Source of the DNA: an uncultured Pirellulaceae bacterium
GTDB lineage: Bacteria > Planctomycetota > Planctomycetia > Pirellulales > Pirellulaceae
Assembly (NCBI GenBank): GCA_938091115.1
Contig: CALKNI010000120.1
Location: 1 to 40,289, forward strand
Direction of reading: 5' to 3'
Length of the DNA: 40,289 nt
Positions 24,618 to 34,436 of this stretch are shown here, piece by piece; position 1 is the first letter of the stretch; each line of letters begins with the position of its first letter. Both the position numbers and the translations under genes were made by a program. Below the pieces are notes generated by a model that had not been told where the DNA came from, made no database searches, and saw only the letters and a program-made list of their open reading frames with translations.

Positions 24618-26483
24618 TCATTGGCCAAAATTATAAAATTCACTCACTGTTTCTGTGGGAACAGTTTCCCCTGCTGAGAGTTCTAGATTGATCGTCCTAG
24701 GAGTTTCCGTGGTTTTAATGAAAAATAGCCATTTTGATTCTGGTCTCATCGGTTCATCCGTTTGAACAAATGGGGCGCGAATGTAGGTGGAAGTCCCCTC
24801 GAGCCGCACGAGAATCTCGTCACTCGCCAATTGGATTTGGATAAATTCACCGTAGATCGGAAGATGTTGATTTGGTTTCTGCAATGCGGATTCAGCGAAC
24901 GATCTATTCATTTGTTTCAATGCAGATTGGTCGTCGCCGGAAAACAGAATCGCGCGTTGATTAAGAGCAGTTTCAAGTTGGGTCAGTTGTTTTATTACCT
25001 GTTTGCCCATTTCGGTTGAGGGTTCCTTTTTCACTTGTTTTTTGAGCTCGGTATAAGCGGTTATCAAGGACTGGAACGTTTCAAATTCAGTTTCGTTTTT
25101 CGGAATCCAGTCGAATTGTTTGCACGCTTCGGTTAGCTGGTTTAGCTTCACTACCGCTTCACGTAGCGGATTATCATCGCTGACAGAGATGAAATCTGAG
25201 GTTTCTGAAAGAGGAGAAAGTTCTTTAAGCGGTTTGATTTCTCCATTCGCATTTTCCCTCAACGCATTGGCTGAATTGGCGGGTACAAAAAAATTATCTT
25301 CATCGATCCGAAAAGAAAGCAAGGCAGCGAGACCGCCATCAATTTTGAATAACGGAGTGCCTGGCAGACCAAGCGTCGAGGTTTTGGCGGAGAACCAAAC
25401 CAAGTCAGTGTTTTTCAATTTCATCCTGTCGGCCGTTGCTTGCGCTACACGGCTGAGGGAGTTGAGCGTTCCCCGCGATTGAATTCGTGTTTCGAGGCCT
25501 CCGTAAAGGTTGTCCAGAGATGGCGGCGCACATTGCAGCAAGAATTCGCTTTTTACGACGTTGTTTCGAGTGATCGGATCGACGGTTGTGAACGCGACAA
25601 CGAAACGCCGGTTCACCGACAAAATAACAAGGTCTTCTTCTTTATTGACTGCGATATATCCACGTACTAGGTCGTTCAGTAATTCGGTTTCGCCAAGATA
25701 CTGGATTGTTTTCAGGCTGGATGAGACTTCGATTTTTGAAGCTCCTTTTACGGTGCTGTAGTTCGTCAACACCCAGCCGCGTGAATCGATAATGGTGCCA
25801 ACTGCATCGTGCGTGCCTTTGCCGTCGTAAACTTTGAGGCTGAGCAGATTGGGCTGAACTGCCTCCCAGCAATTTTGGGCGGACTTGGGGTCGAGTTGTA
25901 CGAACTGTTGGTCGGGGATATTTTTGGGGATCTGTTGCTTAAGTGTTTTCGGGGGTAATTTCGGTGCACTGGTTAAGGCTTCTTCTTTCGGTTCAATCAA
26001 TAGATTTGGGGCAGAAGTGGGTTCTGTGTCCGATACGGAGCTTTCAACTTGTTTTGCAACTTTGTCCTGCCTCATTTGCTTGACCAGCAGACCAGTCAAA
26101 ATTCCGATGGCGATGGTCAGAACCGCCGTAGTAATTAATGTCGAAATAAACCTCCGTTTTCTTCTTTTTCTTAATTGGAGTGCAAGTCTGTATTTGTTAG
26201 TCGATTGCGAAGTTTGGTTGGCCTGAGTTTCGGTTTTTCCAAGTGGATTTTGAACCACATCAGAAATAGCTTGAGAAGGAGGCTTGCCGGTAGCATTGGG
26301 AACCGAGAGACGATCCGGGTCCGTGGTTTGTTTTTTTTCGGTTGTGAGCGGTGGAGAAACTTTGGCGGCGGTTGAAAATTGAAATTTGCGGGAACAACTT
26401 GGGCAGATGACCTTTTTGTCAGGAGGCAGTTCCGGTGTGGTGATGTGCTGCTCGCAAATGGGACATTCAATATTAAGTTGCAT
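24618..26483 (-). CDS. Zinc-ribbon membrane protein with a degenerate trypsin-like domain
   Basis: 621 residues. The N-terminus has two CxxC pairs (Cys7/Cys10 and Cys27/Cys30), a zinc ribbon of the kind planctomycetes place before membrane proteins. A Lys/Arg-rich stretch leads into one transmembrane helix (about 112-134). Residues 205-400 look like an HtrA/trypsin-like fold: GTIIDSRGWVLTNYSTVKG, EEDLVILSV, and GLPGTPLF. The Asp of the triad is kept (Asp284), but the His position in the usual T-N-x-H-V is Ser243, and the Ser position in the usual G-N-S-G-G-P is Pro374. It is therefore probably not a protease. The C-terminal 200 residues are helical, then beta-rich. Its role is unknown; binding or scaffolding is a guess. 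Confidence 0.8.
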   Translation of the reverse strand: MQLNIECPICEQHITTPELPPDKKVICPSCSRKFQFSTAAKVSPPLTTEKKQTTDPDRLSVPNATGKPPSQAISDVVQNPLGKTETQANQTSQSTNKYRLALQLRKRRKRRFISTLITTAVLTIAIGILTGLLVKQMRQDKVAKQVESSVSDTEPTSAPNLLIEPKEEALTSAPKLPPKTLKQQIPKNIPDQQFVQLDPKSAQNCWEAVQPNLLSLKVYDGKGTHDAVGTIIDSRGWVLTNYSTVKGASKIEVSSSLKTIQYLGETELLNDLVRGYIAVNKEEDLVILSVNRRFVVAFTTVDPITRNNVVKSEFLLQCAPPSLDNLYGGLETRIQSRGTLNSLSRVAQATADRMKLKNTDLVWFSAKTSTLGLPGTPLFKIDGGLAALLSFRIDEDNFFVPANSANALRENANGEIKPLKELSPLSETSDFISVSDDNPLREAVVKLNQLTEACKQFDWIPKNETEFETFQSLITAYTELKKQVKKEPSTEMGKQVIKQLTQLETALNQRAILFSGDDQSALKQMNRSFAESALQKPNQHLPIYGEFIQIQLASDEILVRLEGTSTYIRAPFVQTDEPMRPESKWLFFIKTTETPRTINLELSAGETVPTETVSEFYNFGQ

Positions 26484-26585: not shown

Positions 26586-27239
26586 TCAAGCTTTGTGGGT
26601 AACTTTGGGAGATCGCCGGCGCGGATAACAGGTCTGGCAAATTTCACATTTTGTGCCGTCGCACCCACGTGCTGAACAAAACTCCCGTCCGTAGAAGATG
26701 ATTTGTAAGTGTAGGTCATTCCATCTGGATTCGGGAAATAACTTTTTTAAATCAAGCTCAGTTTGTTTAACATTCTTACCGCTGGTGAGTCCCCACCGTT
26801 GCGCGAGTCGGTGGATGTGGGTGTCTACAGGAAATGCTGGTACTTCAAACGCTTGAGCCATCACGACGCTTGCCGTCTTGTGGCCAACTCCCGGTAAATC
26901 TTCAAGTGCTTCGAAGTCGGCAGGAACTTCTGAATCGTATTCATTAACCAAAATTTTGGAAAGTTCCGAGATCGCTTTTGACTTTTTAGGTGAGAGTCCG
27001 CAGGGGCGAATAATGTTGAGGATTTTCTCAACGGGTACCTTTGCCATTTTGACCGGAGTATCAGCAAGTTGAAATAGCGCAGGGGTGACTTGGTTGACTC
27101 TTTCGTCGGTACATTGAGCGCTCAGTAATACGGCGATCAAGAGCGTAAAGGGGTCATGGTGATCTAATGGGACTGGAGGGTTCGGGTAGAGTTCTTCGAG
27201 TCTTTGCTGAATAAACTCAACCCGTTCGCTTTTTATCAT
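26586..27239 (-). CDS. nth: Endonuclease III (DNA glycosylase/AP lyase)
   Basis: 217 residues of the HhH-GPD family, which removes oxidised pyrimidines and cuts the abasic site. The helix-hairpin-helix LEDLPGVGHKTASVV contains catalytic Lys121, and PVDTHIHRLAQR contains catalytic Asp139. LLSAQCTDERVN near the start is the family's usual S-A-Q-x-T-D motif. The C-terminal cluster region differs from the standard C-x6-C-x2-C-x5-C: here cysteines are at 188, 193, 198, 201 and 204. Four of them could still bind a [4Fe-4S] cluster, but the spacing is unusual. The gene sits alone between the zinc-ribbon protein and the cyclophilin group, all on the minus strand. Confidence 0.95.
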   Translation of the reverse strand: MIKSERVEFIQQRLEELYPNPPVPLDHHDPFTLLIAVLLSAQCTDERVNQVTPALFQLADTPVKMAKVPVEKILNIIRPCGLSPKKSKAISELSKILVNEYDSEVPADFEALEDLPGVGHKTASVVMAQAFEVPAFPVDTHIHRLAQRWGLTSGKNVKQTELDLKKLFPESRWNDLHLQIIFYGREFCSARGCDGTKCEICQTCYPRRRSPKVTHKA

Positions 27240-27334: not shown

Positions 27335-28447
27335 CTATTCTCCGTCAGCACTCGATTCTGTTTTTACTTTGTTGGGTTTGTAGTCGTGCTCCCGTTTTCG
27401 GATAACTTCCGCGGTAATAATTTTATCCTTTTCGACACCTTCAATCGGCTGTTCGGCCACCGGCGTTGAAGTGTGAGTTTTTTTGATTGCGGCTAAGACA
27501 TCCATTCCTTTGATAATGCGTCCGAAGCAAGTGTGCCGTCCGTCAAGCATGTCGGTTCGGGAAAACGTGAGAAAGAACTGTGCTCCTCCCGTATTGGTTC
27601 CGGCGTGTGCCATGCTAATGCAATTAGTAAAATGCAGTCTTTTTTCAGGCGAATTACACTCGCATGGAATAGCATAGCCCGGCCCATCGCCATCGACTTC
27701 AACTCCCCCCTGAAGTTTGAATCCACCGCCTTGAGCCATGAAGCCATCGATTACCCGGTGAAATAGCCTGTCCTTGTAATAACCAGCCTCGACGAGGCTA
27801 ATGAAATTGCCAACGGTGTCCGGCGCCTCATTCTCGTAGAGTTCGATGATGATGTCTCCTTGCGTGGTGGCGAGTCGAACCCGCGGTAGATCGTTCTGCT
27901 TCGCTTCGGCGTGTCTAAGTAGGAGTTCATCGAATAGCTCGCGTGCGGGGATGGAAAGTCGTTCCGAGCGAGATGCCATGACGAAATACTCAGGGTTGAT
28001 ATTTTGGCTGATGAGGGTGTCGCCGAGTTGGAGTACTCTGGCGTCCCGGCCGAACTGAGCATCATTCAACATAATGCCTAGTAAGGTTCTAGTGGCTTCA
28101 GAGTCGTTCGGTTTCGCCACCATCTGAGCTTTTGCCTGAGTCTCAAGTTTTATGATCAGCGCTTCTGCCTGTGTCAATAATTCGGTGTACTCTACAATCA
28201 ACTTTTCGCGGTCTTGAGGTTCTGACGGAGGCGTTTCAGTTGCTTTTGCAGTGTTGGGTGCGGTCGATTTCAATTCCGCCTCTTTTGCAGAAATTTTTCC
28301 ATCGAGCGTCTGCCATTGTTGGAGAAGTTCCTTCAGCGTGGTTGCATCCTCTTGGCTTTGCAGGAGGGCGAAACTCGGCATCGGCAGGAAACCAATGACA
28401 AAGAAGAGGAGGATCAAAGAAATTGAAAAAGATCTTGAAGGGTTCAC
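27335..28447 (-). CDS. Secreted cyclophilin-type peptidyl-prolyl isomerase, copy 1 (active site mostly intact)
   Basis: 370 residues from GTG 28447, which follows GGAG at a good distance; a TTG at 28459 is possible. A signal peptide (SFSISLILLFFVIGFLPMPS) is followed by a helical region (about 35-185) and then a cyclophilin domain (about 190-350). The catalytic arginine is present in LFHRVIDGFMAQGG, as are the Gln and Phe of GAQFFLTF and the Leu and His of MLDGRH, so it is likely to catalyse proline isomerisation in the periplasm. The C-terminus ends with RKREHDYKPNK, a signature shared with the next two genes. It is the last of three tandem homologues in transcription order. Confidence 0.92.
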   Translation of the reverse strand: MNPSRSFSISLILLFFVIGFLPMPSFALLQSQEDATTLKELLQQWQTLDGKISAKEAELKSTAPNTAKATETPPSEPQDREKLIVEYTELLTQAEALIIKLETQAKAQMVAKPNDSEATRTLLGIMLNDAQFGRDARVLQLGDTLISQNINPEYFVMASRSERLSIPARELFDELLLRHAEAKQNDLPRVRLATTQGDIIIELYENEAPDTVGNFISLVEAGYYKDRLFHRVIDGFMAQGGGFKLQGGVEVDGDGPGYAIPCECNSPEKRLHFTNCISMAHAGTNTGGAQFFLTFSRTDMLDGRHTCFGRIIKGMDVLAAIKKTHTSTPVAEQPIEGVEKDKIITAEVIRKREHDYKPNKVKTESSADGE

Positions 28448-28595
28448 CAGAGACTCCAATAGAATTTGAAGGTCACTGAATAAGCAGATATCAACTCTGC
28501 TTTCAGTTACTGTTCAGCGGTTGTTTCTAATCGATCATTGTAGCGAGTTATCACTAAACAGTTGAAGATTACTTCGATTCTGAATTACCAGTTAC

Positions 28596-29840
28596 TCAGT
28601 TTTTTTCTGTTATTTTTGTCGGCAGATAATCATGGTCCCGCTTTCGGGAGACCGTTGCCGTTAAGATTTTTGAATAGTTACCTTGTTTACCAGGATTCAT
28701 TGTTAATGACCCGGTGCCAGTGATTCGGTTGAGTCGCCGGACAGCGTCCATCCCAGAAATTACGCGGCCGAATACCGTTTTTTTGCCGTCAAAATTCTTA
28801 TTCCGTTGATAAGAAATGAAAAATTGAGAACCACCGGTGTCGACTCCTGAGTTTGCCATGCTCAACGTCCCTGAGAAATGGTGTCGGATATTATCTCCTT
28901 CAGTTTCACACGGTATTTTGTAACCAGCGTCGCCCGTTCCTCGGTCATTTTTGCATCCAGTTTGCGCGAGCCGTCCCGGAAGAACTAGAAAGAAGTTCAT
29001 TTGGTCATAGAACTTGTTTTCGACTAAATGAATAAAGTTTCCTACGGTTTTGGGAGCTTCATTTTCAAATAGTTCGACAATAATTTCACCTTCGCTGGTT
29101 TCAAATGTAACGCGCGGCAAATCGTTAGAATCCGCTTCCCGCTGGCGTATCTCTTGTTCACGATTCCACTTGGAGACGGAATCATTGAATTCATTTCGGA
29201 TCGCTGATCGCAGGGCAACCTTTTGATCCTCAATTCGTTTGAGCATCACTTCGGCATCGGAATAATTTTCGGTTGCATTTGCCGCCAAAAAACCTTGATA
29301 AGCGATGTCTTCTTGGCGAAGCGTAGCTGAAAGCTCACTCCCCTGATCGATTTTAGTTAGCATCAGCTTAGCAACTTCTAAAGCGCTTTCAGGATCGAAA
29401 TTGGAGCCGCTTCTCGAAAGATCTATTTTTTTCGAGATGATATTAAAAACGGTTTGACAGACACGTGGGCTAGGATTGGCGGACTGTTGAAAAGAAAGCA
29501 GCGCTGCTTCGTCGAGTTGGCTTTTAAGCTGCCTGTTTTTCTCCTTTAACAGGTCGATCTTTGCCATGTGTTCAATCTGCCGTTTTGGGAATCCAATCGG
29601 GCTGGAGCTGAAAAGGCGGGTAATCGCAATTTCGTTTTGGTTATATTGCTCGAGAACCTCTGCGAACGTCAGCGAGTCGTCTTTGGATCGAGATTCCAAC
29701 AGCGAAGTTTTATTAACTGCGGAACCGGGGTTGGACGTCGGTGGTGGAGCAAAGTTTTCCTGCGCAACTAATGGTAGGCAAGAAACCATTGCGATTGTAA
29801 TCGCCAGCAGTAAAACATTTCGGTAAAGCATGAGCATCAT
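28596..29840 (-). CDS. Secreted cyclophilin-like protein, copy 2 (catalytic arginine lost)
   Basis: 414 residues. It has a signal peptide (MLYRNVLLLAITIAMVSCLP), a helical N-terminal region of about 200 residues, and a cyclophilin domain from about residue 242. The fold-defining parts are kept (EGEIIVELFENEAPKTVGNF, DTGGSQFFISY, DGKKTVFGRVISGMD). The segment that should read F-H-R-x-I-x-x-F-M-x-Q-G-G is FFLVLPGRLAQTG, so the catalytic Arg is Leu285 and the hydrophobic Phe/Met are changed. Isomerase activity is probably weak or absent, while peptide binding may remain. The C-terminus has RKRDHDYLPTK. It lies between two paralogs, 30 bases after the stop of copy 3. Confidence 0.88.
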   Translation of the reverse strand: MMLMLYRNVLLLAITIAMVSCLPLVAQENFAPPPTSNPGSAVNKTSLLESRSKDDSLTFAEVLEQYNQNEIAITRLFSSSPIGFPKRQIEHMAKIDLLKEKNRQLKSQLDEAALLSFQQSANPSPRVCQTVFNIISKKIDLSRSGSNFDPESALEVAKLMLTKIDQGSELSATLRQEDIAYQGFLAANATENYSDAEVMLKRIEDQKVALRSAIRNEFNDSVSKWNREQEIRQREADSNDLPRVTFETSEGEIIVELFENEAPKTVGNFIHLVENKFYDQMNFFLVLPGRLAQTGCKNDRGTGDAGYKIPCETEGDNIRHHFSGTLSMANSGVDTGGSQFFISYQRNKNFDGKKTVFGRVISGMDAVRRLNRITGTGSLTMNPGKQGNYSKILTATVSRKRDHDYLPTKITEKN

Positions 29841-29870
29841 ATCAGCAAATCCTACGAATGTTCGTAACCC

Positions 29871-31061
29871 TTATTTCTTGTCTTTGACTCTATTGGGTTC
29901 GTACTCGTGGTCTCTTAAATTAGTGATTGTGATAGACTCAATGATGTCTGGGACAGCGTCCTTAATAAACTCTTCTTTGTCCTCTTCTTCGTTTACTTGA
30001 AACGTCTCCTGAATATTGTCGAGAATACTCATGTCAGAGATCACTCGCCCAAAGACGGTGCTCTTGCCGTCGAGATTGGGGCCGGGAACGAGCATGATCC
30101 GAAATTCAGCAGCCGCCGTATTAGGTTCGTTATTTTTGGTAACCATAGCGACAGATCCCCGAAAGTGATGCCGAGAATCGGATCTTTGGTGCTCGTCGTA
30201 GATTGTATATCCAACCGGTTGAGGTCGACTCATTGTCATGAGTCCCGCATCAGCAATAAGGTTTCTTAGAACGTGGTGAAAAATCATGCCATCATAAATT
30301 CCAGTTTGGACGAGGCTGACAAAGTTCCCAACTGTTTCCGGCGCTTGATTCTCAAACAGTTCAATCACGATTTCACCGCGATTGGTTTTGATGATCGCTT
30401 GTGGTAATGGCTCTCCCTGGGCGTCCGAAGCACGTAGGGCTAGTTCTCGTTCATAACCAGTCACGAGTTTGTCCATTGAGTTGCCATACAACGCACCTTC
30501 AGGAACACCAAGTTGTTCGGCTTGTTCTTTGTTGGCCTGATAGTACTGTTGAGCAAAAGCGAAATCATTGTTCAGGATTGAGACACGCCCCATGAGATTG
30601 TAGAGGTCTTTGTTGTCGGGGTACAGTTTAAGTAGTTTTTTGGTCGTTAGATAACATTTTGCGAGTTGTCCCTGAGCGATGAGATCTTGATTCATCATCG
30701 AAACAATTTCATTCACCTGGTTGCCCGGGTTGTCGGTTTCAAAAAACAAGGCGAATGAGGCTTCACGGACTCGTTTATAAGCAGTTTGAGCGATGACTGC
30801 TTCCGCTTTCCACTTGCTGCGATATACATGGGCAACGGTGCTCTTGTTTTCGTAGAACTCGTGTCCGGTTTTCTTAATCGCTTTGATGGCGTCCTTTAAT
30901 TCGAGAATAGCGGCGTCGAATTCGGCTCGCATTTCTTCAATGCTCTGCGGAGAATTATTTTCTAATTCCTGACCGGTGGATACCGTCGTTAGAACCGTTG
31001 CCGTGATGATTAAGCAAGTCTTAGTCAGCCAAATGGAAATCAGATTAGGAAATCGAAGCAT
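29871..31061 (-). CDS. Secreted cyclophilin-like protein, copy 3 (most degenerate active site)
   Basis: 396 residues with a signal peptide (MLRFPNLISIWLTKTCLIIT), a helical N-terminal region that looks partly TPR-like (about 120-180; LYNLMGRVSILNNDFAFAQQ), and a cyclophilin fold from about residue 220. IKTNRGEIVIELFENQAPET and DGKSTVFGRVISDM identify the family. The catalytic segment reads FHHVLRNLIADAG (Arg to His263, Gln to Asp) and the usual Q-F-F is EFR, so at least three catalytic positions are lost. The C-terminus LRDHEYEPNR matches the other two copies. First of the three in transcription order; 200 bases upstream is rsmD on the other strand. Confidence 0.87.
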   Translation of the reverse strand: MLRFPNLISIWLTKTCLIITATVLTTVSTGQELENNSPQSIEEMRAEFDAAILELKDAIKAIKKTGHEFYENKSTVAHVYRSKWKAEAVIAQTAYKRVREASFALFFETDNPGNQVNEIVSMMNQDLIAQGQLAKCYLTTKKLLKLYPDNKDLYNLMGRVSILNNDFAFAQQYYQANKEQAEQLGVPEGALYGNSMDKLVTGYERELALRASDAQGEPLPQAIIKTNRGEIVIELFENQAPETVGNFVSLVQTGIYDGMIFHHVLRNLIADAGLMTMSRPQPVGYTIYDEHQRSDSRHHFRGSVAMVTKNNEPNTAAAEFRIMLVPGPNLDGKSTVFGRVISDMSILDNIQETFQVNEEEDKEEFIKDAVPDIIESITITNLRDHEYEPNRVKDKK

Positions 31062-31261: not shown

Positions 31262-31939
31262 ATGCCAAGGTTCAAGCGCGGAAAAAATCTGGCGAAATGG
31301 AATTCCAATCGCGCTGAGGCCGGGCACGGGAAGTTAAGAATTGTCGGTGGTTCCTTTCGGGGGAGATTAATCGATTATTCCGGTGATCCGGTGACGCGTC
31401 CAATGAAAGACCACACACGCGAAGCCGTTTTTAACCTCGTTGGCGGCTGGGTCAAAGACAAAACAGTTTTTGACTTATTCGCGGGCACTGGAGCGATGGG
31501 ATTGGAAGCGCTCAGTCGCGGTGCCTCTAAATGTATCTTTGTGGAGCGCCACTTCCCTACTGTACGAATTATTCGAGAAAATGTTCTTAGTCTCGATCCA
31601 GATCTACCCGCGGACGTGAATTCATCGGATACATTTTTCTGGGTGAGGCAATTTTTGAAGAACCCCGAGTTGTGGCCGTCCGAGCCGTGGGTGGTATTTT
31701 GCTGCCCTCCCTACGCACTCTACGTTGAAAAGCCAACGGAAATTGTTGGGATGGTGGAGAGCTTGATGAAGATTGCGCCTCCGGAGAGTGTGTTTGTGGT
31801 TGAATCTGACAGCCGCTTTGATCCTGAACTGCTGCCAGAGCCTCAGTCATGGTTTGTCCGCAAGTACTCCCCGGCGCTTGTTGCTGTAAGGCGAGAGCGT
31901 GAATCGGGCAGTAACGATGCGATAGATGAAACGAGCTAG
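31262..31939 (+). CDS. rsmD: 16S rRNA (guanine966-N2)-methyltransferase family protein
   Basis: 225 residues of the RsmD/YhhF family. The N-terminal signature LRIVGGSFRGRLI leads into TRPMKDHTREAVFNLV, the family's R-P-T-x-x-R-V-R-E-x-x-F-N block. FDLFAGTGAMGLEALSRGA is SAM-binding motif I, followed by FVERH. Motif IV is CCPPYALY where RsmD usually has D-P-P-F/Y; the Asp-to-Cys change is notable because that residue contacts the target amine. The function would be methylation of G966 in 16S rRNA. The ATG at 31262 gives about 25 residues of basic leader before the family region, so the true start could be further in. Confidence 0.88.
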   Translation: MPRFKRGKNLAKWNSNRAEAGHGKLRIVGGSFRGRLIDYSGDPVTRPMKDHTREAVFNLVGGWVKDKTVFDLFAGTGAMGLEALSRGASKCIFVERHFPTVRIIRENVLSLDPDLPADVNSSDTFFWVRQFLKNPELWPSEPWVVFCCPPYALYVEKPTEIVGMVESLMKIAPPESVFVVESDSRFDPELLPEPQSWFVRKYSPALVAVRRERESGSNDAIDETS

Positions 31940-32162: not shown

Positions 32163-34436
32163 ATGCCCACACGAATCGCAAGGAATGCGTTTCTCGGTCT
32201 TTTGCTTGCCATTGCTTCAATGTATAGCAATGGCTTGGCACAGCAGACTGCTCAGCATGCCCATTTCAATGATGGCACGGCATCGTTGTCGAACCAAAGT
32301 GGACCGGTTTGGGTGACGTTTCAAAGTGATCTAAAGGATTACCGTCCCTCCGCAAATGCGTTAATTCAGCAAATTGAATCACTGGATTCAATTCCCGAAT
32401 TAGATTCGTGGTCAACGGAGACGCTCGCCATTCTTGAGCAGTTGTCCAAAGAGGAGTTGAGTTGCGATCAGACGCGTGTTCTTTATGAACAATTGGAATC
32501 GCAAGCGAACATCGCGAGGGAACTTTCAGAGGTTGTTCGAGAACGTTGCGAAAATTCTCCAGAGACGCAATACGATTATTGTGATGTTGCTCGACTTACC
32601 TATCGAATCAAACGCCGGCTTGCGATTTGGAATTCGATTTTGGATTCGAAAGTCGGACATGAGGCCACTCAACAACCGGTAACCCACTCATTCGGAACGC
32701 GGGTCGATTCACAGCAGAGGTTGCTGGATGATCTTGCTGCCAGCAAAATTGATCCAGTTTGGCGTGATTATTTGATGTTGGACTCACTGGAGTCGGTGAT
32801 TGCGACCGCATCGCCTGAGTCTTCTAAAATCAGGACTGCCGCCCGCGAGGTTTTAGCTCGGATTTATTCCCCCGTTCTGGATAAAGAGCAGGCGAATTAT
32901 GTGAAAAGCGTGATTAACCCCTGCTCGCTTCAGTTGTTAAAGGGTATTGCAAGGTTGCCATTTGATGAAATGGAACTGCTTCGTCGAATCGAAAACTATG
33001 AATCAAATCCGTCTTCTTTGACTGGTTATTATTTGAATGACCAATATCAAAATTTATTATGGTCTGAAAAGCCAGGTGAGGTCGCAATGGCGAGAGCGAT
33101 TGAGACCCACTACCGAAACGCGAATATTCGTTTGGCTTTTTCTGAGCGTCTAATAAATCGGTTGCTTCCTAAGCTTCCTGAAATCGAGCAACCGGTAGAT
33201 CAAAATTTCAAGGGCGCTCGTGTCCTTGGACAGAGCCGCGTGTCGAACCAGCTCCGTGTGAATTTGATTCCTGATGATTCGCAAATTCAATTGAATTTAG
33301 AAACTCGAGGCGATGTTCAGTCGGACACTGTGGCAAATACAAAAATCTTTCGGGTAACCAATCTCGGCAGGGCTAATTTCGAGGTCTTCCAAAATATAAT
33401 AATCAACGAGGAAGGCATCGAAGCGGTCGGCGACCCCTATGCTCGATCGAAAGCAAACCAGTTGGTAGTTGCGGTAGAATCTGGTTTGGACAACCATCCA
33501 ATTCTCGGCGGACTGGCTCGAAAGATTGCAAAAAATAATTTGAAGCGAGATGCATCAGAAACCGACCGCATGTACAAACGGACGGTGGAATCGTCCGTAG
33601 AGGAGCAGATGCGAACTCAGGTTAGCGAACAGTTACAGACGGTTCGCGAATTGGCCTACACAAAATTGTTCCAGCCATTGTTTGGAATGGATCTGGAGCC
33701 GGAGCCTAAGCAGCTGGCGACAACTGAGGACCAAATGGTGGTGCGTTACCGAATCGGGGGACGCGATCAAATGGCCGCGAATACAGCGAGGCCGCCGGAC
33801 GGTGCGGGCAGCTTAATGAGTTTCCAGTTGCACCAATCCGCCGTCAATAATGCAATTTCTCGCATCGGCCTCAATGGCAGGCAGTTTACAGTTGATGAGC
33901 TTACTGAGCACCTGCGAGGTTTCGTTGGCGCCGAGGGCTCTGCGGAGCCGCAGGCGAAAAGTGACCAACACGCCGAAGTCGGATTTGCTTATTTTGATCC
34001 AATCTTGGTTGAGTTTCAGGAGGACCAGTTACGGGTAACTCTCAATCTGAAATCATTGAAGATTGGTGAGAAGGGGAAAGTTTGGAAGAACGTCTCGCTC
34101 ACTGCGGCCTATCGATTTGTCAGAGATGGCATGAAGATTCAATTGCAGCAAAACGACGACGGTACTCGTATTCGTGGGAAGCGGCTTAAGTTTGGTGATA
34201 AAGCGGCGATCAGTACCGTCATGAAAGTGCTGTTTAAGAAAGAGTACTCTGTCGCATCGCTTCCCGACAAGATAGCTCAGCGGATTGATACAAGCCAGCT
34301 TGAGATTTCCCAACTCTCTGTCTCAGATGGTTGGCTTGCCGTTTCAGTTGACGACCAAGAATTCAATATTGCGCAAGAAACGGTCCTGGATGTTTTGCGA
34401 ACCAGCACTAATCGAAAATTGATCAACCGTCGTTAA
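32163..34436 (+). CDS. Large secreted protein of unknown function
   Basis: 757 residues. A signal peptide is clear (IARNAFLGLLLAIASMYSNG, cleavage near LAQQ). The first half is mainly helical and polar. A beta-rich stretch begins at about residue 340 with LRVNLIPDDSQIQLNLETRG and continues to FEVFQNIIINEEGIEAVGDP; it is followed by a charged helical part (about 440-510) and another beta-rich C-terminus. The alternating hydrophobic strands recall lipid- or envelope-binding proteins, but I recognise no family and would not assign one. Conserved cysteines are few. It is convergent with the lipoprotein gene, 29 bases away. Confidence 0.75.
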   Translation: MPTRIARNAFLGLLLAIASMYSNGLAQQTAQHAHFNDGTASLSNQSGPVWVTFQSDLKDYRPSANALIQQIESLDSIPELDSWSTETLAILEQLSKEELSCDQTRVLYEQLESQANIARELSEVVRERCENSPETQYDYCDVARLTYRIKRRLAIWNSILDSKVGHEATQQPVTHSFGTRVDSQQRLLDDLAASKIDPVWRDYLMLDSLESVIATASPESSKIRTAAREVLARIYSPVLDKEQANYVKSVINPCSLQLLKGIARLPFDEMELLRRIENYESNPSSLTGYYLNDQYQNLLWSEKPGEVAMARAIETHYRNANIRLAFSERLINRLLPKLPEIEQPVDQNFKGARVLGQSRVSNQLRVNLIPDDSQIQLNLETRGDVQSDTVANTKIFRVTNLGRANFEVFQNIIINEEGIEAVGDPYARSKANQLVVAVESGLDNHPILGGLARKIAKNNLKRDASETDRMYKRTVESSVEEQMRTQVSEQLQTVRELAYTKLFQPLFGMDLEPEPKQLATTEDQMVVRYRIGGRDQMAANTARPPDGAGSLMSFQLHQSAVNNAISRIGLNGRQFTVDELTEHLRGFVGAEGSAEPQAKSDQHAEVGFAYFDPILVEFQEDQLRVTLNLKSLKIGEKGKVWKNVSLTAAYRFVRDGMKIQLQQNDDGTRIRGKRLKFGDKAAISTVMKVLFKKEYSVASLPDKIAQRIDTSQLEISQLSVSDGWLAVSVDDQEFNIAQETVLDVLRTSTNRKLINRR

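Follow-up and report, generated by a model that had tools for sequence, protein, structure and literature searches.

Cyclophilin domains without measurable isomerase activity are described among human proteins, where those of PPIL4, PPIL2, PPIL6 and SDCCAG10 are proposed to act as proline-binding modules; the same source presents Arg55 of human cyclophilins as invariant and catalytic, and PPIL4, which is devoid of it, as inactive (PMC2911226). Arabidopsis CYP38 and spinach TLP40, located in the thylakoid lumen, are described as an N-terminal helical bundle joined to a C-terminal cyclophilin domain without peptidyl-prolyl isomerase (PPIase) activity, and CYP38 is required for photosystem II assembly (PMC7959726). 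Dead cyclophilins are in this sense already known in eukaryotes (PPIL4, CYP38), and in bacteria AquaCyp293 and AquaCyp300 of marine Alphaproteobacteria are a pair of paralogues of unequal yet real activity, which carry an extra domain and are discussed as periplasmic (PMC4898713). The subject of this analysis is an array of three tandem genes for probably exported helical-cyclophilin proteins, referred to as copies 1, 2 and 3, in an uncultured marine Pirellulaceae bacterium of the genus Mariniblastus. The array lies in a 40,289-nucleotide stretch of DNA, the window, which was analysed at its full length (assembly GCA_938091115.1, contig CALKNI010000120.1).

The array is like each of these systems in part. 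Like CYP38 and TLP40, its proteins have a helical N-terminal half followed by a cyclophilin domain; CYP38 is described as keeping four conserved residues (R290, F294, Q372, F374) (PMC7959726) and is not encoded in an array. The AquaCyps likewise combine an extra domain with unequal paralogues, but in them the extra domain is the NIC domain, of mixed alpha-beta type, and each of the two is active (PMC4898713). SurA resembles the array in joining a chaperone core to PPIase modules, and in an otherwise unmodified background it can chaperone without its PPIase domains (PMC8573040). SurA differs in being a parvulin and a single polypeptide, and no homology with the array is claimed. The human proteins differ in being eukaryotic and encoded by single genes. 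None of the four is known to have a helical, export-type N-terminal half of the kind found in the array. The top match for copies 1 and 2 among the sequences of the PDB is the Geobacillus kaustophilus cyclophilin 2mvz, which differs in having a single domain with FHR and QFF intact. In the open-access literature, to which the search was directed (subscription papers were outside its scope), neither these planctomycete proteins nor pseudoenzymes among bacterial cyclophilins were the subject of any paper listed. What the array adds is a bacterial family in which the catalytic arginine was lost several times independently and live paralogues stand next to dead ones. This makes testable the long-standing question of whether cyclophilins are retained for isomerase activity or for binding, and M. 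fucicola FC18 is probably a cultured type strain of the genus.

The reading mildly favoured here is that of a conserved exported helical-cyclophilin array in which binding would be carried by the helical half and the C-terminal tail, with an isomerase-like site in at least one copy.

Architecture and active sites of the three copies

The array genes and their parts are as follows.

27335..28459, minus strand: copy 1, predicted exported helical-cyclophilin protein, 374 aa, TTG start (open reading frame (ORF), Pfam)
27440..27880, minus strand: copy 1 cyclophilin domain, PF00160 (genome-wide profile search, E 4.5e-39)
27896..28336, minus strand: copy 1 helical N-terminal half (model helices, residues 42 to 188; hhalign)
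27368..27394, minus strand: copy 1 C-terminal motif REHDYKPNK, 10 residues short of the protein end
28596..29840, minus strand: copy 2, predicted exported helical-cyclophilin protein, 414 aa, without the catalytic Arg (ORF, Pfam)
28710..29111, minus strand: copy 2 cyclophilin domain, PF00160 (genome-wide profile search, E 5.4e-37)
29127..29666, minus strand: copy 2 helical N-terminal half (model helices, residues 59 to 238; hhalign)
28614..28640, minus strand: copy 2 C-terminal motif RDHDYLPTK, 5 residues short of the protein end
29871..31061, minus strand: copy 3, predicted exported helical-cyclophilin protein, 396 aa (ORF, Pfam)
29982..30392, minus strand: copy 3 cyclophilin domain, PF00160 (genome-wide profile search, E 3.6e-34)
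30408..30944, minus strand: copy 3 N-terminal half (hhalign; TPR_19 matches in some orthologues)
29889..29915, minus strand: copy 3 C-terminal motif RDHEYEPNR, 5 residues short of the protein end

An earlier note on this DNA had described three consecutive minus-strand genes with a helical N-terminal region and a C-terminal cyclophilin domain, and the ORFs and Pfam agree with it. Pfam Pro_isomerase (PF00160) matches copies 1, 2 and 3 with E = 1.5e-38, 2.1e-36 and 8.7e-34, and the scores of 117-133 bits against a curated cut-off of 21.7 place all three in the family. A hydrophobic N-terminal stretch in each protein, read by eye as a signal peptide, makes the export proposed in the note likely.

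The active sites were compared in human CypA numbering, with the list of site residues taken from PMC2911226. Copy 1 (motifs FHRVIDGFMAQG and AQFFL) has R55, F60, M61, Q63, Q111, F113 and H126. Its pocket residues R235, F240, M241, Q243 and F296 correspond to R55, F60, M61, Q63 and F113, the set looked for in a catalytic cyclophilin, and its isomerase activity is likely on these residues. Copy 2 (motifs FFLVLPGRLAQT and SQFFI) has L55, R60, L61, Q63, Q111, F113 and K126, with L285 at the Arg55 site and R290 at the F60 site in its own numbering. Copy 3 (motifs FHHVLRNLIADA and AEFRI) has H55, L60, I61, D63, E111, R113 and S126, so numbered that H263 stands for Arg55, D271 for Gln63 and E319/R321 for Q111/F113. 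Thus, the Arg55 looked for in a catalytic cyclophilin is replaced by Leu in copy 2 and by His in copy 3 of the window, and copies of this kind have presumably lost isomerase activity. The residues singled out in the earlier note are all there: FHR, Gln and Q-F-F in copy 1, FFL for FHR in copy 2, and FHH, Asp for Gln and EFR for QFF in copy 3. Further losses were found beyond them, namely F60R and H126K in copy 2 and F60L and H126S in copy 3. The site residues fit the claim of one enzyme-like and two pseudoenzyme-like copies.

The N-terminal halves were compared by hhalign with a reference of 55 N-terminal halves from outside the genus (60 proteins, of which 5 without a recognised domain start were omitted). 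The profiles of copies 1, 2 and 3 match this reference at E 2.3e-22, 6.7e-20 and 2.1e-25. Direct comparisons give 2e-11 for copies 2 and 3 and 3.5e-6 for copies 1 and 3, and are weak, at 4.2e-4, for copies 1 and 2. By these profiles the three N-terminal halves are homologous, and the common N-terminal half claimed in the note is recovered through the related outside-genus profile. The duplication described in the note is supported. AlphaFold2 models of copies 1 and 2, the two modelled (pLDDT 81.5 and 79.7), predict a long helical hairpin and further helices followed by the cyclophilin barrel, and match solved cyclophilins with best E-values of 7.5e-14 and 1.7e-12. CYP38 was not among the structure matches listed for the models, a listing filled by the cyclophilin domain in which the helical half was barely compared. 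Degenerate TPR_19 matches occur in 8/19 copy-3 and 3/20 copy-2 orthologues (E up to 0.1, best 4e-6), and the window copies match TPR profiles with E at or below 0.03, under the curated cut-off.

The shared R-x-H-D/E-Y-x-P-N/T-K/R motif is present in all three copies as claimed, only not at the very C-terminal end, where the note had put it. Counted by the loose pattern R-x(1,2)-[HN]-x-[YH], the R-x-H-x-Y motif is found in the genus in 26/26 of copy 1, 24/25 of copy 2 and 23/25 of copy 3, and in 40/45 single-hit loci outside it.

Gene order, orthology and loss of Arg55

The search covered 80 genomes, the window's own included, and stretches were read from 77 of the 79 others (none from G002 or G038). 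Relatives were found in 80/80. In Mariniblastus the gene order is nth-1-2-3-rsmD, and the outer genes of the window are the following.

26586..27239, minus strand: nth-like gene (HhH-GPD), kept neighbour on the copy 1 side (Pfam; genomic context only)
31262..31939, plus strand: rsmD-like methyltransferase gene (Cons_hypoth95), divergent, kept neighbour on the copy 3 side (Pfam; genomic context only)

All three copies lie on one contig in 22/28 genomes of the genus, including G014, in which the third copy is cut by the contig end. Among these 22 arrays, nth follows past copy 1 in 22/22 and rsmD past copy 3 in 21/22. As for the remaining genomes, the three copies of G012 lie on two contigs, which fits a contig break, contig ends truncate the loci of G004, G021 and G027, and the whole region, rsmD included, is absent from G002. 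In G013 copy 1, with its pocket intact, is on another contig (L051/L052), apart from copies 2 and 3 and from nth, a natural break of the array. The sister genus g56 has three copies in 4/4 loci read (4/5 genomes, G103 being unread); three of these loci are bounded by nth and rsmD, and in one rsmD alone was found. The triplet in relatives, which the earlier note had asked after, therefore exists in 22/28 Mariniblastus genomes and four sister-genus loci. Many relatives carry one copy only; rows from outside the genus represent best-match loci and do not cover the full cyclophilin set of a genome. In the single-hit loci among them rsmD lies in the same stretch in 31/45.

A tree of 66 selected rows, computed carefully under a mixture model, separates copy 1 (support 99/97), copy 2 (100/99) and copy 3 (100/99) into clades, so placing each copy in its own orthologous series. 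The middle copies of Mariniblastus and g56 join with an SH-aLRT of 100 in a quick tree and with 89/99 in a second careful tree, built from other rows. In genera g13, g18 and g66 the copies on the nth side cluster with copy 1, which makes the duplication older than the genus and rules out a triplication within the genus only. In the 138-row tree rooted on E. coli, copy 3 branched outside the others; where copies 2 and 3 belong in the deep part of the tree is uncertain, given their long branches. In G131 of genus g66, three tandem long cyclophilins (L212, 6560-10313) all carry FHR, Gln63 and QFF; this array is a possible picture of the state before any loss.

The whole pocket was defined as R55, F60, M/L/I/V61, Q63 and F/Y113. 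Within the genus Arg55 is kept in 23/26 of copy 1, 0/25 of copy 2 and 12/25 of copy 3, and the whole pocket in 21/26, 0/25 and 10/25. Outside the genus, single-hit loci have Arg55 in 41/45 and the whole pocket in 39/45, and multi-copy loci in 14/15 and 13/15. In g56 the arginine is present in copies 1 and 3 (4/4 each) and absent from the middle copy (4/4), and on the trees and residues the loss in copy 2 predates the split of the two genera. Copy 3 lost Arg55 in some Mariniblastus lineages only, and copy 1 in one clade. In genus g18 the Arg55-less middle copy of G044 and its intact relative in G251 are joined in the tree (100/92), so the arginine was lost from a middle copy at least twice. Arg55 must have changed state at least 8 times on the 138-row tree and at least 7 times on one of 64 rows. 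The earlier note's "clean series" from enzyme to pseudoenzyme does not survive this comparison: the copies are separate orthologous series whose sites were lost independently, in different lineages, so what looked like a stepwise series consists of losses that happened separately, and the trees rule out a historical succession.

Copy 2 of the genus has L, Q, V, Y, K or W at position 55 and R, E, K, Q, L, T, N and once F at position 60 (Phe60 in 1/25). These residues bear on the idea that copies 2 and 3 still act as isomerases, using a rearranged site and with a specificity that is altered or narrow. AquaCyp300 offers a parallel, since with different site residues it is reported as still active at 12-120-fold lower activity on 4/5 peptides (PMC4898713), and copy 2 of the window retains Q63 and F113. 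The many residues at positions 55 and 60, however, look like lost constraint and not like a new site, and the idea is considered improbable.

All three copies were read in 24 Mariniblastus genomes. Arg55 is present in copy 1 only in 13 of them, in copies 1 and 3 in 8, and in copy 3 only in 3, so that at least one copy has it in 24/24; at least one full pocket is found in 22/24. These patterns touch the proposal, raised as a possible complex in the earlier note, that the three proteins form one hetero-oligomeric envelope chaperone held together by the helical halves, in which one or two arms would be catalytic and a dead middle arm would be indispensable. It draws on the fixed gene order, on the co-conservation of all three copies, on the 0/24 genomes in which both outer copies are without Arg55, and on the helical domains that dimerise the envelope PPIases FkpA and Mip, AquaCyp300 also being dimeric (PMC4898713). 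The non-overlap of the outer losses is not significant (tip-level P about 0.08), and it is not evidence, since the copy 1 loss is confined to a single clade, in which copy 3 is intact; reciprocal loss was rejected as proof of a complex. The separate position of copy 1 in G013 and the many relatives that manage with a single copy also count against the hetero-oligomer, which is judged doubtful.

A family-wide search found relatives in 234/241 genomes. The sample beyond the genus comprised 20 genomes of 13 genera with mostly weak scores, and is biased. The long copy, read in 19/20 of these Pirellulaceae genomes, is without Arg55 in 14 (mostly Gln) and has it in 5, and the short cyclophilins carry FHR, Gln63 and QFF in 11/11. 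The single copies without Arg55 from 8 genera group in a separate clade (100/99), away from copy 2, so a single old dead lineage for all such copies is not supported, with the caveat that the branch uniting copy 2 of both genera has 89/99 in the same tree.

Further features of these long proteins were recorded. In loci L232, L234-L238, L240-L245 and L247 they share F-x-QV, LLALT and SSQFAI or similar motifs and have Gln or Leu at the Arg55 site; a short intact cyclophilin lies elsewhere in several of the genomes. In G039 a very divergent long cyclophilin with FFLV and no Arg55 adjoins rsmD (L117, 6300-7592), and two more long copies are on another contig (L077).

Selection and proposed function

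Selection was estimated as pairwise Nei-Gojobori ratios of nonsynonymous to synonymous substitution rates (dN/dS) between the window and five close relatives. The ratio is 0.060-0.106 for copy 1, 0.083-0.187 for copy 2 and 0.056-0.119 for copy 3, against 0.029-0.043 for nth, 0.037-0.073 for rsmD and 0.100-0.177 for a neighbouring trypsin-like gene; several synonymous values exceed 1, and those ratios are rough. The cyclophilin domains alone, with two pairs split, give 0.044-0.147 for copy 2 and 0.048-0.094 for copy 3. All three genes are under purifying selection, so the Arg55-less copies are functional genes and not pseudogenes. Residue loss and purifying selection, two of the traits of a pseudoenzyme, coincide in copies 2 and 3 and make them candidates for this kind. 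Copy 2 also has conserved positions of its own near the old site, I342 (100%) and Q345 (95%; n=20 after six near-duplicate loci were dropped), where the commonest residues outside the copy 2 series are L (45%) and V (30%).

These data weigh on the view of copies 2 and 3 as decaying redundant duplicates, which the repeated loss of pocket residues would fit. The frames are open, and dN/dS is well under 1 in every comparison, with no stop codons or frame shifts in these. Copy 2 was read in 25/28 genus genomes, the exceptions being the contig ends of G004 and G027 and the absent region of G002, and the dead middle copy predates the genus. Decay is thus highly improbable.

Conservation covers the helical half, barrel core and tail, whereas the arginine and the proline pocket are repeatedly lost, and the simplest reading is a family kept for binding; catalytic loss in proteins that stay conserved suggests a non-catalytic role. 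Both live and dead copies retain the helical half and the R-x-H-x-Y-x-P tail at the C-terminus, and these parts would do the main, non-catalytic work, most likely the holding or docking of client proteins in envelope folding or assembly. An isomerase-like site would be retained in at least one copy of the set, and the middle copy would be a dedicated pseudo-cyclophilin that uses its barrel, with residues conserved in its own series, as a module for binding. Isomerase activity would then be a feature of some family members and binding the kept function; SurA and CYP38 are precedents. Homology, gene order, orthology, the residue losses and purifying selection are shown here, whereas the loss of activity, the envelope location, the binding of clients and the dispensability of catalysis for the shared function are inferred.

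Several points weigh against this reading. G015 and G025 (2/24) have no full-pocket copy, though their copy 1 keeps Arg55. Copy 1 of the window has Met at the CypA Trp121 position, which is known to influence cyclophilin activity (PMC2911226), so even copy 1 may be weak. The evidence comes from sequences and models, including the rough ratios and the loose motif pattern given above. Five further PF00160 matches in the genome and parvulins in 28/28 Mariniblastus genomes mean that the array need not be the source of isomerase activity. The array as a replacement for parvulins was dropped on the latter count.

A wider proposal joins two statements. The first is that the essential function of the long Pirellulaceae envelope cyclophilins is non-catalytic, catalysis having been dropped independently in many lineages. 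The second concerns Mariniblastus and its sister genus, where an obligatory dead paralogue would have been retained between live ones as a dedicated subunit of a heteromeric envelope chaperone, to bind clients or to act as a scaffold. The proposal is put forward as tentative, and if true it would provide a bacterial cyclophilin counterpart of the chaperones made of live and dead PPIase modules.

Genomic setting of the array

The source genome has 4.19 Mb in 232 contigs, of which the window is contig 120, and holds 8 PF00160 matches, three of them in the array. The intergenic gaps in the array are 30 and 136 bases. Promoter and terminator scans of the array did no better than chance, so the operon reading stands on spacing and gene order alone. 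A PHROGs search gave no match for the array, and among the plasmid records matching copy 2, 0/107 span 80% of it.

Two neighbouring genes were also noted. Downstream of nth and in the same orientation, positions 24618-26483 (minus strand) encode a 621-aa protein that opens with a CxxC zinc-ribbon-like segment at its N-terminus, probably has a membrane helix (judged by eye) and contains a trypsin-like domain matched weakly by Trypsin_2, under the cut-off. Past rsmD, positions 32163-34436 (plus strand) encode a 757-aa exported-looking protein without a Pfam match, relatives of which lie near rsmD in many genomes.

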